From the NCBI RefSeq assembly GCF_000975035.1, contig NZ_BBRA01000001.1:1466838-1530837 (forward strand): DNA of 64,000 nt. Direction: 5' to 3'. Below are positions 1,294 through 45,802 of the stretch, piece after piece. The notes beneath the pieces are model-generated. The model was given only the letters and a program-made list of their open reading frames with translations. It searched no databases and was not told the origin of the DNA. The DNA comes from Demequina flava (GTDB lineage Bacteria; Actinomycetota; Actinomycetes; Actinomycetales; Demequinaceae). Position 1 is the stretch's first letter, and each line of letters opens with the position of its first letter. A program made the position numbers and the translations under genes.

Positions 1294-1306
1294 CATTGCC
1301 TCCTCG

Positions 1307-1346
1307 TCGAGGCTGGTACCCCCATTGGCACCCCTCAGCGCCTCGA
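1307..1346 (-). promoter_or_regulatory. Structured 5' leader RNA, copy 1 (candidate cis-regulatory RNA)
   Basis: Read on the minus strand, the leader forms an outer stem (UCGAGGC pairing with GCCUCGA), a conserved single-stranded GCUGAGG, an inner hairpin (GGUGCC/GGUACC) and a conserved A. The second copy at 3378-3418 has the same architecture with compensating changes. The 3' strand of the outer stem (GCCUC) can alternatively pair with the Shine-Dalgarno GAGGC just downstream, as in a translational on/off switch. It matches no riboswitch class I can name. Confidence 0.6.
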
Positions 1347-1356
1347 CACACAACTC

Positions 1357-1384
1357 ACGCTAGTGAGGTTTCTCACACTCGCAA
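1357..1384 (-). promoter_or_regulatory. Promoter of the left-edge surface protein gene with CRP-like operator in the spacer
   Basis: On the minus strand: -35 TTGCGA, 16 bp, -10 TAGCGT. The spacer holds TGTGA-N6-TCACT, one base off the CRP/GlxR-type consensus. The start of transcription would fall at about 1350, just before the structured leader. The promoter of the neighbouring secreted-protein gene is built the same way. Confidence 0.55.
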
Positions 1385-1393
1385 CGGGACGAT

Positions 1394-1415
1394 GTGACAG
1401 AAGTGACAGAAGTAA
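1394..1415. promoter_or_regulatory. GTGACA direct repeats, period 9 (MtrA-box-like)
   Basis: GTGACAGAA occurs twice in tandem, followed by a degenerate third unit GTAA, about 10 bp upstream of the -35 element. A 9-bp-period repeat of GTSACAnnn resembles the direct-repeat motif described for mycobacterial MtrA. The same spacing recurs at 3502 and 8367, in both cases upstream of genes for secreted proteins. Assignment to MtrA is inference. Confidence 0.4.
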
Positions 1416-1537
1416 ACCAATGAGACGAGAGTGGTGAAAATCACACTCGCAGTTGCAGAACTGTGACCTTTGGTTATGGTATTCGCGGAATTGAGAGTAG
1501 TTGACGGGCGTTACGGGTCCCTCATCAGACATACAGA

Positions 1538-1581
1538 AACGCTCGGTCCCCACAGCAACGTTGCTGTGGGGACCGAGCGTT
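1538..1581 (-). terminator. Perfect 44-bp palindrome, terminator of the secreted-protein gene
   Basis: The two 22-nt halves are exactly complementary and centred on CAACGTTG. It lies about 35 bp beyond the stop codon of the minus-strand gene at 1616-3364, and on that strand is followed by TCTGTATG. The rest of 1416-1615 holds nothing else that I recognise. Confidence 0.7.
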
Positions 1582-1615
1582 CTCGGTGCCGTGTGGGGCG
1601 GCGTTGGACGTGAAA

Positions 1616-3364
1616 TCAGCCCGTGTACGTCACCTCGCCGCGCACGGGAACAGCGGCGGGCGCAGCGCCCGTCACGACGACGGGACCAGCGCTGAGGACG
1701 CGACTTGCCGTCACGACTTCGTCGTCGGCTTCCGGAGCGTTCGCGCAGTCAGCGGTCGCCTCGGGGTAAGCGGCTGTCACCGTGATCTCAGGGTTCACTT
1801 CAATCAGCACATCGCCGTCGCGAGTCCAGCCCCAGTTGTCGTCAGCGACCGCGGTCCACTCGTCACCGATGAGAGCCCAGCCCGGCCAGCCCGCGGGGTT
1901 GCTCTCTGAGTCCAGGGACGCGCCAGGCCAGAGCAGTTCGCCGGCCATTGTGGGCAGGTCGATGGTGAGTGGCTCGATCGGTGTGACGCCATCGGGGTAG
2001 AACTCTTCATCGGCATCAGGCAGGAACGTAATGCTCGGCAGTGCGGAGTCGTCGACCAGGCCGTTTGGGTCGTTCACCGTCACGTCGTACGTGAAATAGG
2101 GCACGTCCCCCAGGCACAGGTTCCCGATGAGGGTTCCGTCAAGGCTTGCCTCCTCGAAGATGCGTGTGGGGCAGTCCTCGCCGGTGTCCGTCTGCGTCCA
2201 TTCAGACTGAACTTCTTCCGCGAACTCGTAGCCGTCGGCAGGCGTGGCGGTGGCCGTCGCGACGCCGTCGACCACATTCGTGGACCACTCGACCCCGGGG
2301 AACACGGGGGCCTGAACCGCGATGTTGTCGGGGCCGCACGGGTCCTCAAACGTGGGAGCGGGGGGCGTGACGACGCAAGTTTGCTCCGTGTCGTAGGCCG
2401 TCCATGAAGTCACCGCGTCCGCGGGGAAGGTGAACCCTTCCTGTGGCGCGACCTCAATCGTGTAGGCGCCTCCGAACACGGCGGACTGTGCCCAGTCAAT
2501 GCCTTCGGCATTGGCGTCGAACTGCCAGGCGCCGTCTCCCGCGAGGCAGCCCTCTGCCCATGTGGGGGTTGGCGCCACGACAGTTTCGAGGCAGTTGTCG
2601 CCGTCGAGGTCCTCGCCGGAGGAGGCCTTGGCCTCGCCTCGCTCAAGCGACTCGTCGTCGCCCCACGTGATCTTGGCGTCGACGTCTTCGCGGGGCGTCT
2701 TGATCTCAGCCTGATCCCCGGCGGGCGCAGTGTCCTCGCCGACGGTGTTCCACTCGTCGCCGTCTTGGTACTTGAGGACAAACGGCACGTCCTGGTCGCT
2801 CGCATTTGCCACGACCCACGTGTTGCTGGAGTCGGGCTCACACGCAGGGATATAGGTCAGTGTGAGCTCGACCTCAGCGGGCTCTTCGGTGGCGGTGCCA
2901 CAAGTGGGGCCACCGGTGTAGTGGAAGTACCACGCGGTGGTGATGCCGCCGTCTTCGCCGTGCGTGAGAGTGTCGTCCGCGAGTACCGCGTTGATGTCGG
3001 ATGCGCGCCCCTCGTACTTATCAACCTGGTACCAGGTGCACTGCGTGAGCGTCCCAACCTGGGTGTGCGTGCCTTCGCCCACGAGCGCTTGCGGCCACAT
3101 CGCCGTCTCGTGATCGTCGGCGCATGCCGGGGAGCCGTATGCGTCGTAGTTCACCCAAGGCGTTGCCGTCGGGGACGTCCATACGTCCGTGCCCTCCGCG
3201 GCATCGAACGTGGGGCATCCGGGCGCCGGGATCTCCCACGTCACCCACTGTGTTGTGTCCTCGTCGGACTGATCGTTGCCCGCGTGGGCCGCCGGTGCGG
3301 CCAACCCCACGAGCGCGAGTGCGGCGGCGCATGCGAGCGCAGCCGCGCGTGTGCGCAGTTTCAT
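1616..3364 (-). CDS. Large secreted protein of unknown function
   Basis: 582 residues. The start is ATG with GGAGG five bases upstream; the reading frame extends nine codons further but that ATG lacks a ribosome site. The signal peptide has a hydrophobic core and AHA-type cleavage at about residue 28. The mature protein is acidic, Trp- and Thr-rich and has regularly spaced Cys residues. Around residues 250-370 there are related segments with W-x-T and CGPDN/CVVTPPAP-type motifs, suggesting tandem beta-sandwich or Ig-like domains. The C-terminus ends VRGEVTYTG with no LPXTG motif or hydrophobic tail, so it is probably released or bound non-covalently. It shares promoter layout and leader RNA with the left-edge surface protein, so the two are probably co-regulated. 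I do not recognise a family. Confidence 0.75.
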   Translation of the reverse strand: MKLRTRAAALACAAALALVGLAAPAAHAGNDQSDEDTTQWVTWEIPAPGCPTFDAAEGTDVWTSPTATPWVNYDAYGSPACADDHETAMWPQALVGEGTHTQVGTLTQCTWYQVDKYEGRASDINAVLADDTLTHGEDGGITTAWYFHYTGGPTCGTATEEPAEVELTLTYIPACEPDSSNTWVVANASDQDVPFVLKYQDGDEWNTVGEDTAPAGDQAEIKTPREDVDAKITWGDDESLERGEAKASSGEDLDGDNCLETVVAPTPTWAEGCLAGDGAWQFDANAEGIDWAQSAVFGGAYTIEVAPQEGFTFPADAVTSWTAYDTEQTCVVTPPAPTFEDPCGPDNIAVQAPVFPGVEWSTNVVDGVATATATPADGYEFAEEVQSEWTQTDTGEDCPTRIFEEASLDGTLIGNLCLGDVPYFTYDVTVNDPNGLVDDSALPSITFLPDADEEFYPDGVTPIEPLTIDLPTMAGELLWPGASLDSESNPAGWPGWALIGDEWTAVADDNWGWTRDGDVLIEVNPEITVTAAYPEATADCANAPEADDEVVTASRVLSAGPVVVTGAAPAAVPVRGEVTYTG

Positions 3365-3377
3365 TGGTTCCTCCCAC

Positions 3378-3418
3378 CCGAGGCTGGGCATCCCAGCGAC
3401 GCCCCCTCAGCGCCTCGG
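3378..3418 (-). promoter_or_regulatory. Structured 5' leader RNA, copy 2
   Basis: Minus-strand reading: outer stem CCGAGGC/GCCUCGG, GCUGAGG single strand, inner hairpin GGGCGUC/GAUGCCC with loop GCUGG, then A. Compared with copy 1, the closing pair of the outer stem changes from U-A to C-G and the whole inner stem differs in sequence yet still pairs, which is covariation support. CCUC of the outer stem could instead pair with GAGG of the Shine-Dalgarno six bases downstream. Confidence 0.6.
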
Positions 3419-3427
3419 CCGCCCCTG

Positions 3428-3455
3428 ACGCTAGTGACATTTCTCACATCGTCAA
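3428..3455 (-). promoter_or_regulatory. Promoter of the large secreted protein with CRP-like operator in the spacer
   Basis: Minus strand: -35 TTGACG, 16 bp, -10 TAGCGT. The spacer contains TGTGA-N6-TCACT. The -10 hexamer and spacer length are identical to those of the left-edge gene. The structured leader begins at the expected transcription start. Confidence 0.6.
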
Positions 3456-3501
3456 CTTGATTGAGTGGCAAATGTTGCCAATGTGACAGTACGGTGATGA
3501 T

Positions 3502-3516
3502 GTGACAAAAGTCACA
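3502..3516. promoter_or_regulatory. GTGACA-N3-GTCACA repeat (MtrA-box-like)
   Basis: Two half-sites with 9-bp period, 47 bp upstream of the secreted-protein promoter and about 120 bp before the oppositely oriented oxidoreductase gene. It is the same arrangement as at 1394 and 8367. Confidence 0.35.
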
Positions 3517-3633: not shown

Positions 3634-6495
3634 ATGACGGACGTGACGATCGCGCCTGAGACCACCGACCTTGCCGCACACTTGCGCGCTGCCGTGGCTG
3701 GCGATGTCGACGACTCGCCCCGCCGCCGCGCGGAGTACTCGACGGACGCATCGAACTACCGGGTACCGCCCCAGGTAGTTGTCTTCCCGCGCGACTCCGA
3801 CGACCTCATTGCAGCTCTCGCTGCCGCGAGCCAGGCCGATGCTCCCATCACCATGCGAGGTGGCGGAACCTCGGTAGCCGGCAACAGCATCGGCCCGTCT
3901 GTCGTGATTGACACGAGTCGGTACATGAACCGCGTCCTCGACATCGACGCAGAAGCCCGTACGGCCCGCGTCCAGCCCGGCCTTGTGCTCTCCGAGCTCC
4001 AGAAGGTTGCGGCGCCCCACGGCTTGCGTTTTGGCCCGGACCCGTCGACCACGACGCGCGCGACGCTGGGCGGACTGATCGGCAACAACGCTTGCGGCCC
4101 GCACGCGGTCGCCTATGGCAAGACCGCGGACAACGTCATTGCACTCGACGCCGTCACCGGAAACGGCACGCGCATCGACGCGACGCGCAAGGGCACCGCA
4201 GCAATCGACGGGCTCGACGACCTCATCCGCGCCAACCTCGCCCTGATTCGCCAGGAGTTCGGTCGCTTTGACCGGCAGGTGTCGGGCTACTCGATGCAGC
4301 ACCTCTTGCCAGAACTTGGCGGCGACCTTGCGAAGTTCCTTGTCGGTACCGAGGGAACGCTCGCGACCACCCTAGAAGCGACTGTGAACCTGGTGCCGAT
4401 CGCGCCGGTGCGCATCACGGTCGCGTTTGGCTATCCAGATATGCCTTCCGCGGCCGATGCCGTGATGCCGATCATGGCCCATGGGCCTCACGCGGTGGAG
4501 GGGTTGGACGCCCGCCTGGTCGAGCGCATTCGTGCGGCGAAGGGCGACTCGGCCATTCCCGACTTGCCGCCCGGGGCCGGCTGGCTCTTTGTGGAGGTCG
4601 GGGCGGACACGGAGGATGAGGCGCAGGAGATTCTCGCCAAGATTTCGGCCGATGCTGGGACTGGGTCGGTCACCGTCGTCGCCGATCCTCGTGAGGCCGC
4701 GCAGTTGTGGGCCATTCGTGCCGACGGAGCGGGGCTCGCGGGACGCAGCGTCGATAACAAGGAGTGCTGGCCGGGTTGGGAAGACGCGGCAGTGCCGCCC
4801 GAGCGCCTGGGACAGTATCTGCGCGACTTTGACGTCCTCATGGACAGCCATGGCGTGACCGGGCAGCCGTTCGGGCACTTTGGTGACGGGTGCATTCACG
4901 TGCGCCTCGACATTCCCCTGCAGGACGACGGGCGACCGATGCGCGCATTCATGGAGGACGCGGCCGCGCTCGTCACGAGCCACGGCGGGTCGCTCTCCGG
5001 CGAGCACGGCGACGGGCGTGCCCGCGGCGAGCTGCTCCACCATATGTACTCCCAGGAGGCGATCGATCTCTTTGGGCAGGTCAAGGCGCTCTTTGATCCA
5101 GGCGACGCGCTCAATCCGGGCATCATCGTGGATCCCGCGCCGCTTGACGCGGACCTGCGCCGTCCCGCCGCACCGGCGGTCCCTGCGACCGACGGTTTCG
5201 CGTTCCTGCACGACCACGGCGACATGACCGAGGCGCTGCACCGCTGCACCGGCGTCGGCAAGTGCCGCGCGGACGCGATTGGCACGGGCACCGGATTCAT
5301 GTGCCCGTCCTACGCCGCGACCAAGGACGAGAAGGACGTCACGCGCGGACGCGCCCGGGTGCTGCAGGAGGCGATCAACGGGCAACTCATTGGCGGAATT
5401 GCCGCTCCGGAAGTGCGCGAGAGTCTCGATCTGTGCCTGAGCTGCAAGGCGTGCTCGACCGACTGCCCCTCCGGGATCGACATGGCCGCGTACAAGGCGG
5501 AAGCGCTTCACCGCACCTACAAAGGCAAAGTTCGGCCCGTTGCTCACTACAGCATCGGCTGGTTGCCCCGTTGGCTCAAGGTGGTCGGCATTGCCCCCCG
5601 CGTAGTCAACGCGCTCCTGAAGCCAGCCTGGATACAGCGCATCGCTGTATCGGTGGCAGGCATGGACACTCGCCGGCACCTCCCGACATTCTCTGCGACC
5701 CCGTTCCGCCGGTCCAAGGCCGCGAAGTCGCACCGTGAATCCGACGTCACCAACGTGGAGCGCCGTGTGGTGCTGTGGGCGGACTCGTTCACCGACGGGC
5801 TCGACTCCGAGATCCCCGAGGCGATCATCGCGGTCCTCGAGGACGCAGGCTTCGAGGTCGTGGTTCCCGAACAGTCGGCGTGTTGCGGCGTGACGTGGAT
5901 CTCGACCGGCCAGCTGGATGCGGCGCGCAAGCACCTCGACTCGCTGCTGGGCGTGCTGGGGCCGGTCGCGGTCAACGGCATTCCGATCATTGGCATCGAG
6001 CCCTCGTGCACAGCGGTGCTACGGAGTGACCTCGTGGAGCTGCTTCCCGAGGACCCGCGAGCCCGTGCGGTCGCGGCCGGGACATTCACGTTGGCGGAGG
6101 TGCTCGCCGGGAAGGCGCAGGTCAAGCCGCGCAAGGACTGGGAAGTGCCGCGCCTCGACGACGTCACGGCGGTTGTCCAGCCGCACTGCCACCAGTACTC
6201 CGTGACCGGTTTTGGCGCCGATCGCGAGCTTCTCGCTGCCGCTGGCGCCACCGTCACCGAGACCTCCGGCTGCTGCGGTCTCGCCGGCAACTGGGGCACC
6301 GAGAAGGGGCACTACGACACGTCGGTTGCCGTCGCGGAGAACTCGTTGCTGCCCGCGCTGCGCAACGCCCCGGAAGGCAGCATCTACATCGCGGATGGCG
6401 TGAGTTGCCGTACTCAGGCAGAGGACTTGGCCGGGGAACGCGGGCTGCACCTCGCGCAGTTGCTAGCCCAGCGCATCGGGCCGATGCGCGACTGA
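3634..6495 (+). CDS. FAD-binding and Fe-S oxidoreductase (GlcD plus GlpC-like fusion)
   Basis: 953 residues. The N-terminal half is a PCMH-type FAD-binding domain (MRGGGTSVAGNS near residue 75, GPDPSTTTRATLGG near 130) followed by an FAD-oxidase C-terminal domain with FGHFGDGCIHVR. It is fused to a ferredoxin-like part with CTGVGKC near 536 and CLSCKACSTDCPSG near 600, and a C-terminal half with two CCG motifs (near 749 and 879) typical of heterodisulfide-reductase/GlpC-type subunits. Such proteins oxidise D-2-hydroxyacids such as D-lactate or D-2-hydroxyglutarate and pass electrons to the respiratory chain; the substrate cannot be decided here. The start ATG follows AAGTGGAAC, a weak ribosome site. 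Transcribed divergently from the secreted-protein gene. Confidence 0.88.
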   Translation: MTDVTIAPETTDLAAHLRAAVAGDVDDSPRRRAEYSTDASNYRVPPQVVVFPRDSDDLIAALAAASQADAPITMRGGGTSVAGNSIGPSVVIDTSRYMNRVLDIDAEARTARVQPGLVLSELQKVAAPHGLRFGPDPSTTTRATLGGLIGNNACGPHAVAYGKTADNVIALDAVTGNGTRIDATRKGTAAIDGLDDLIRANLALIRQEFGRFDRQVSGYSMQHLLPELGGDLAKFLVGTEGTLATTLEATVNLVPIAPVRITVAFGYPDMPSAADAVMPIMAHGPHAVEGLDARLVERIRAAKGDSAIPDLPPGAGWLFVEVGADTEDEAQEILAKISADAGTGSVTVVADPREAAQLWAIRADGAGLAGRSVDNKECWPGWEDAAVPPERLGQYLRDFDVLMDSHGVTGQPFGHFGDGCIHVRLDIPLQDDGRPMRAFMEDAAALVTSHGGSLSGEHGDGRARGELLHHMYSQEAIDLFGQVKALFDPGDALNPGIIVDPAPLDADLRRPAAPAVPATDGFAFLHDHGDMTEALHRCTGVGKCRADAIGTGTGFMCPSYAATKDEKDVTRGRARVLQEAINGQLIGGIAAPEVRESLDLCLSCKACSTDCPSGIDMAAYKAEALHRTYKGKVRPVAHYSIGWLPRWLKVVGIAPRVVNALLKPAWIQRIAVSVAGMDTRRHLPTFSATPFRRSKAAKSHRESDVTNVERRVVLWADSFTDGLDSEIPEAIIAVLEDAGFEVVVPEQSACCGVTWISTGQLDAARKHLDSLLGVLGPVAVNGIPIIGIEPSCTAVLRSDLVELLPEDPRARAVAAGTFTLAEVLAGKAQVKPRKDWEVPRLDDVTAVVQPHCHQYSVTGFGADRELLAAAGATVTETSGCCGLAGNWGTEKGHYDTSVAVAENSLLPALRNAPEGSIYIADGVSCRTQAEDLAGERGLHLAQLLAQRIGPMRD

Positions 6496-44487: not shown

Positions 44488-45639
44488 TTACAGTGCCTTG
44501 TCGGTGTGCACTGCGGCCGACAGGCGGTCGCCAGAGGCCGACGAGAACACGTGCTGCTCGCCCTCGCGGATCTTGACCCACACGGTGTCACCCTTCTTGG
44601 GGACGTCGCGGGGGTCGATGCGCACGATGACCTCGGAGTCGCCAGCATCGAAGTGGATGTCAGCGGCGCCGGGAGCGTCGGAGGGAATCGAGCCGTAGAC
44701 GTATGCGTCGGAGCCGAGCTCCTCGACAACGTCGACCTGGATCGCGATGGCGCCATCAGTGTTGGGCGACACGCGGTCGAGCGACTCGGGGCGGTAGCCC
44801 ACGACGACGCGGTTGTTGTCCTCAGCCTTGAGGCCGGCAATGGCCTCGCGGTTCAGCGCAACCTGGCTGGTGCCGATCTGGGCGAAGTCGCCGTTGACCG
44901 CGTAGGTACCGATGTTCATGGCGGGAGAGCCGATGAACCCGGCGACGAACACGTTCGCGGGAGCGTCGTACATGTCGCGCGGGGTGCCAACCTGCTGGAG
45001 CAGACCGTCCTTGAGGACCGCGATGCGGTCACCCATGGTCAGTGCCTCAACCTGGTCGTGCGTGACGTACACGGTGGTGGTGCCCAGGCGGCGCTGCAGT
45101 GCGGCGATCTGGGTACGGGTCTGGACACGCAGCTTGGCGTCAAGGTTCGACAGCGGCTCATCCATGAGGAACACCTGGGGCTGACGCACGATGGCGCGAC
45201 CCATGGCGACACGCTGACGCTGACCACCGGAGAGTGCCTTGGGCTTGCGGTCCAGGTACTCGGTGAGGTCAAGAATCTTCGCGGCGGCTTCAACGCGCTC
45301 GCGGATGTCTGACTTGTCGACCTTGGCGATCTTCAGGGCGAAGCCCATGTTGTCGGCCACTGACATGTGGGGGTACAGCGCGTAAGACTGGAACACCATT
45401 GCGATGTCGCGGTCCTTGGGCTGAACGTGCGTGACGTCGCGGTCGCCAACCCAGATGGAGCCGGCGTCGATGTCCTCGAGTCCTGCGAGCATGCGCAGGG
45501 AGGTCGACTTTCCGCAACCGGAGGGGCCGACGAGGACGAGGAATTCGCCGTCAGCGATGTCGAGTTCAAGCGAGTCAACTGCTGGGCGTTCGGTGCCCGG
45601 GTAGATTCGCGAAGCCTTGTCGTAAGTAACAGTGGCCAT
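44488..45639 (-). CDS. ABC transporter ATP-binding protein (UgpC/MsmK/MsiK family)
   Basis: 383 residues from ATG with AAGGGA eight bases ahead. Walker [21 protein letters not shown]-loop VFQSYALYPHMSV, signature LSGGQRQRVAMGRAIV, Walker B VFLMDEPLSNLDA, switch VTHDQVEA; then the C-terminal TOBE/MalK-type domain (VVVGYRPESL, VVEELGSDAYVYG). No permease or binding protein nearby, so it is probably the shared ATPase energising several sugar importers, like MsiK. Confidence 0.88.
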   Translation of the reverse strand: MATVTYDKASRIYPGTERPAVDSLELDIADGEFLVLVGPSGCGKSTSLRMLAGLEDIDAGSIWVGDRDVTHVQPKDRDIAMVFQSYALYPHMSVADNMGFALKIAKVDKSDIRERVEAAAKILDLTEYLDRKPKALSGGQRQRVAMGRAIVRQPQVFLMDEPLSNLDAKLRVQTRTQIAALQRRLGTTTVYVTHDQVEALTMGDRIAVLKDGLLQQVGTPRDMYDAPANVFVAGFIGSPAMNIGTYAVNGDFAQIGTSQVALNREAIAGLKAEDNNRVVVGYRPESLDRVSPNTDGAIAIQVDVVEELGSDAYVYGSIPSDAPGAADIHFDAGDSEVIVRIDPRDVPKKGDTVWVKIREGEQHVFSSASGDRLSAAVHTDKAL

Positions 45640-45653
45640 GAGAGGTCCCTTCA

Positions 45654-45671
45654 CTGGCAGGTACGTGCCAG
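45654..45671 (-). promoter_or_regulatory. Inverted repeat in the leader of the sugar ABC ATPase gene
   Basis: CTGGCA-N6-TGCCAG, 15-32 bp upstream of the start codon and next to the ribosome site. It could be an operator or a hairpin; no regulator can be named. Confidence 0.35.
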
Positions 45672-45802
45672 ACGATCCGTGGTGAAGAGTGCCGGTGTGG
45701 TGTCCACAATGACACTGATCTCCCCAAGGTCTGGAGTGATCGACCACATCTTCTCATATCAGAAGGTCCTCATCCAACCTCCCTGGCTGTACCGTGAGTG
45801 CC

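Follow-up and report, generated by a model that had tools for sequence, protein, structure and literature searches.

A structured, covarying mRNA leader upstream of secreted-protein genes in the genus Demequina

In the 64,000-nucleotide stretch of the Demequina flava genome analyzed here (contig NZ_BBRA01000001.1, positions 1,466,838 to 1,530,837; hereafter the window), two adjacent secreted-protein genes on the minus strand are each preceded by a short leader that can be folded into the same shape, raising the question of whether this shape is a genuine RNA structure and, if so, what it does for the genes behind it. Gene 1 (1-1296, extending beyond the window start) encodes a secreted repeat protein with the signal peptide MQLKTKIIAVFAAVALSIVGWAVPATAA, and gene 2 (1616-3364) encodes a 582-aa secreted protein with the signal peptide MKLRTRAAALACAAALALVGLAAPAAHA and without a clear domain. 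Searches of Pfam and NCBIfam returned no convincing match for either protein. The gene 1 product is a long repeat protein; the assembly carries a run of N just left of the window, with a shift of reading frame beyond, and the homologous region of genome G043 is likewise divided over two frames. The gene 2 orthologue in G043 is 61% identical. A gene for a YdiJ-like FAD oxidase (3634-6495) is the divergent neighbor.

Both leaders were read directly from the minus strand. Copy 1 (1307-1346; covariance model scores of 61.8-65.8 bits) has an outer stem with the 5' arm UCGAGGC at 1346-1340 and the 3' arm GCCUCGA at 1313-1307, enclosing GCUGAGG (1339-1333), an inner hairpin GGUGCC/AAUGGG/GGUACC (1332-1315) and a single A (1314). 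Copy 2 (3378-3418; 55.9-62.1 bits) is built from the arms CCGAGGC (3418-3412) and GCCUCGG (3384-3378), with GCUGAGG at 3411-3405, an inner hairpin GGGCGUC/GCUGG/GAUGCCC at 3404-3386 and the A at 3385. The initial annotation had described an identical fold for both leaders, in which a 7-bp outer stem encloses a conserved GCUGAGG and an inner hairpin, and its coordinates and letters proved accurate. GCUGAGG forms an internal loop in both copies. The single A on the 3' side, to which it had also drawn attention, is present in both window copies but gives way to U or C in several members of the wider family. The Shine-Dalgarno sequence GGAGG lies at 1299-1303 for gene 1, a few nt past the outer stem, and at 3370-3374 for gene 2 (both minus strand). 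Copies 1 and 2 are the sole exact matches of the leader pattern in the 2.55 Mb genome.

Promoters were called by a pattern search together with the layout common to the 16 homologous leaders described below. The gene 1 promoter spans 1357-1384 (minus strand), with a -35 box TTGCGA at 1379-1384, a -10 box TAGCGT at 1357-1362 and a 16-bp spacer bearing the palindrome GTGAGAAACCTCAC (1363-1376); that of gene 2 spans 3428-3455 (minus strand), with TTGACG at 3450-3455, TAGCGT at 3428-3433 and the palindrome GTGAGAAATGTCAC (3434-3447) in a spacer of the same length. Among the 16 leaders, the spacer between the -35 (TTGnnn) and -10 boxes is always exactly 16 bp and contains a GTGA..TCAC-type palindrome, and the -10 box is TAnCGT with one exception (G043b, TGTTGT). 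The element occupies a fixed place between promoter and Shine-Dalgarno, its position relative to the promoter and start codon of the homologous genes being constant, and the outer stem starts 8-12 nt past the -10 hexamer in all 16. Since transcription usually starts 6-8 nt from the -10 box, the stem is predicted to start 0-6 nt from the 5' end; as it also stops a few nt before the Shine-Dalgarno, the leader would comprise little beyond the stem-loop itself. The palindrome GTGAGAAAnnTCAC found in both spacers (1363-1376 and 3434-3447, minus strand) resembles CRP/GlxR-type operators, as does TGTGACAAAAGTCACA upstream of gene 2 (3501-3516). Relatives carry GTCAC repeats at a spacing of roughly 9-10 bp; MtrA was considered as the regulator and rejected, because its published repeat spacing (PMC6265350, PMC12323332) does not match this distance.

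A covariance-model search, as proposed in the initial annotation, and a promoter-pattern search yielded 14 further copies in the genus in which the stem is kept with compensatory changes. Models built from seven copies (R1) and from fifteen (R2) were run over 44 genomes of the same genus, and an independent search used the pattern GTGANANNNNTCACTANCGT, built from the promoter alone. This promoter-only pattern found 15 sites in 14 genomes, every one at the leader locus, including the leaders of G013, G034 and G008 that R1 had missed. The models and the promoter pattern together gave 16 leaders in 14 of the 44 genomes, all at one syntenic locus type: an orthologue of the oxidase adjoins the leader gene in nearly all 14 genomes, and the genes downstream of the 16 leaders encode secreted proteins whose signal peptide mostly starts with MKLR. 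Matches of R1 below 27 bits were taken as chance, as were R2 matches outside the genus and weak ones in G010, G031 and G014; these lack the conserved promoter and lie mostly within open frames. The match in G021 is a genuine but divergent copy.

No convincing copy was found outside the genus among ~750 genomes, drawn from overlapping sets for the order (396) and the class (395), which were scanned in a fast mode that weak matches can escape. A search of 149 relatives for the exact pattern returned, besides the window copies, only a match in G047, which was rejected for its longer and different interior, and a leader-pattern scan of a broad contig set gave at least 119 matches in unrelated phyla and was discarded as too unspecific. 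No Rfam family reached its gathering threshold for this leader, in the window copies or in the other homologues, and an open literature search returned nothing on the leader element. The leader belongs to the known kind of structured 5' leaders and is apparently a previously undescribed RNA control element. Elsewhere in the window, the msiK RNA of Rfam occurs at 45639-45697 (minus strand, 60.1 bits).

The covariation claimed between the two window copies is real beyond chance and is borne out by the compensatory changes in the homologues. In the 16 hand-parsed leaders, 107 of 112 possible outer-stem pairs form, compared to at most 101 when the 3' arms were permuted 20,000 times, and at the fourth outer pair counted from the loop A-U, U-A, G-C, C-G and G-U all occur. 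Pairing holds in 89.4% of the cells of the 15-sequence model alignment, compared to 69.8% after shuffling; both sides have changed in 41 cells (14.8 after shuffling), and none of 500 shuffles attained the covariation score of 0.531 (0.171 after shuffling). Shifting the partner by 1-3 columns abolished covariation in this alignment. The hand-parsed test is the cleaner of the two because the model alignment was fitted to the structure, albeit hand parsing too sought the stem. Relatedness inflates the permutation significance; dropping three of the most similar sequences left the outcome unchanged. The close relatives G039 and G023 display a clean double change from G-C to A-U in the stem, and on a tree of the neighboring oxidase the stem changes are distributed over several clades. 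The inner hairpin, too, is formed from differing letters (GGUGCC/GGUACC, GGGCGUC/GAUGCCC, GGCGGC/GCCGCC and others). GCUGAGG is exact in 14 of the 16 leaders, and the two exceptions, G043a (GACCUGG) and G008 (GACGCAU), have kept the outer stem. Thermodynamic folding alone is no proof of structure; whole-leader z-scores for the 16 copies lie between 0.0 and -3.7. The G042 leader, which is not one of the 16, has no unusual stability when folded alone (z=+1.0), and this weighs against the stem-loop explanation given below. Because relatives within the genus change the letters yet keep the fold, the leader hairpin is a real structured, cis-acting mRNA leader.

Divergent leaders precede MKLR-type secreted proteins in G002, G024, G025, G028, G040 and G021. 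In these the hairpin is kept and the interior differs, GCUGAGG is still present in four of them, and in G002, G024, G025, G040 and G021 the hairpin stops just short of the Shine-Dalgarno. The GCUGAGG letters are located in a hairpin loop in G002, G028 and G040; they are missing from the leaders of G035 and G042, whose hairpin is simpler. A GCTGAGG repeat at codons 2-4 (ATGAAGCTGAGG) was considered as a feature linked to the leader and rejected, since neither window gene has it and G035 and G042 carry it although their leader lacks the motif; ATGAAGCTGAGG opens most related genes (L157, L168, L170 and other homologous loci). A kink-turn reading of the loop was rejected by inspection, the required GA being missing from the opposite strand.

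How might the structure act? It had been suggested that the 3' arm of the outer stem can instead pair with the Shine-Dalgarno, such that an intact stem and a masked ribosome site exclude each other. The complementarity is there in the window copies, over 5 bp (GCCUC/GAGGC) in one and 4 bp (CCUC/GAGG) in the other, but is not conserved family-wide: it reaches at least 4 bp in 12 of 16 leaders and is lost in the other four, with no useful pairing in G014, G039 and G023 and 3 bp in G043b. Across the 16 leaders, an arm matched its own Shine-Dalgarno no better than those of other leaders (complementarity and duplex energy, permutation p of 0.14 and 0.16, or 0.21 and 0.22 after removal of three of the most similar sequences); the identical test on the outer stem gave p <5e-5. 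The background of complementarity is high because C-rich arms meet G-rich ribosome sites. With p about 0.2 and loss in four copies, a masking switch is unsupported as a conserved function. The predicted fold favors the masked form in G013, G034 and G043a, and masking may operate in a subset of species. These findings weigh on a ligand riboswitch, in which the aptamer would consist of the GCUGAGG loop with its flanking G-C pairs, and the 5' arm and the Shine-Dalgarno would be alternative partners of the outer 3' arm. Riboswitches that control translation from short leaders combine a conserved internal loop, covarying helices and an adjacent Shine-Dalgarno, and the present leader shares this aptamer-like arrangement as well as the frequent arm complementarity and the three masked folds. 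It differs in having no Rfam match, no conserved masking and no ligand-linked genes, metabolic or transport functions being absent downstream, and in its restriction to a single locus type in one genus; moreover, G043a and G008 retain the outer stem although the loop has been replaced. We consider a riboswitch unlikely. An RNA thermometer, or plain occlusion of the Shine-Dalgarno without a ligand, is very improbable: the site is predicted to be mostly paired in some members (unpaired: 0.17 in G013, 0.21 in G039), but across the family its predicted accessibility varies between 0.17 and 0.84, and the members share no occluding helix.

The explanation to which we give about an even chance is that a 5'-terminal stem-loop tunes mRNA lifetime or ribosome access for secreted, probably surface-exposed repeat proteins, with GCUGAGG probably being read by a partner. 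Transcription would start from the conserved promoter and leave only a few nt ahead of the closed outer stem; the stem would keep pyrophosphohydrolase and 5'-end-dependent RNases away from the 5' end and would present the Shine-Dalgarno directly after it. The internal loop is probably read by a partner, be it a protein, an RNase or a small RNA, that adjusts stability or loading. The broader proposal that genes for surface-type secreted proteins carry a small, structured leader acting in cis is supported, with true covariation in many homologues. According to a review (PMC3997798), 5'-terminal stem-loops stabilize the mRNAs of exported proteins in E. coli (ompA, papA) and B. subtilis (aprE). 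The present leader resembles these in having a stem-loop a few nt from its (predicted) 5' end, a ribosome site next to it and an mRNA for an exported or surface protein; a stabilizing role here is inferred. Unlike those leaders, in which a conserved loop sequence is not needed, the one described here has a near-invariant GCUGAGG; as a pure stabilizer could do without it, the leader probably serves recognition as well.

In another reading, GCUGAGG would be the landing site of a trans-acting factor, either an RNA-binding protein or a small RNA, which represses or activates translation. The exact retention of these letters in 14 leaders whereas stems and spacers are scrambled, and their recurrence in a hairpin loop of the distant leaders G002, G028 and G040, are consistent with such a partner. 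In actinobacteria, targets of the 6C small RNA (Rfam RF01066) have a G-rich leader near the ribosome site, as the present genes do; however, no 6C match above the cut-off was found in this genome, and we hold the trans-acting reading to be about as unlikely as a riboswitch. That the inverted repeat is a DNA-level operator or a product of chance, and not RNA, is the least probable reading of all: the adjacent promoter holds palindromes resembling protein-binding sites, but the arms covary, whereas those of an operator would keep their sequence, and every copy of the element sits downstream of its -10 box. A bolder proposal, doubtful though slightly less so than the riboswitch, is a genus-specific RNA sensor: a new small module, either an aptamer or one for protein recognition, would have GCUGAGG at its core and control production of the main secreted surface proteins, and in some species masking of the Shine-Dalgarno would be bistable.

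Taken together, these findings illustrate that an attractive account of Shine-Dalgarno masking drawn from one genome can fail on comparison with homologues. They also describe an RNA element that is small, confined to one lineage and strongly covarying, that Rfam does not contain and that is associated with surface-protein genes of one actinobacterial genus, whose compact leader (about 60 nt) and near-invariant loop make it amenable to testing.
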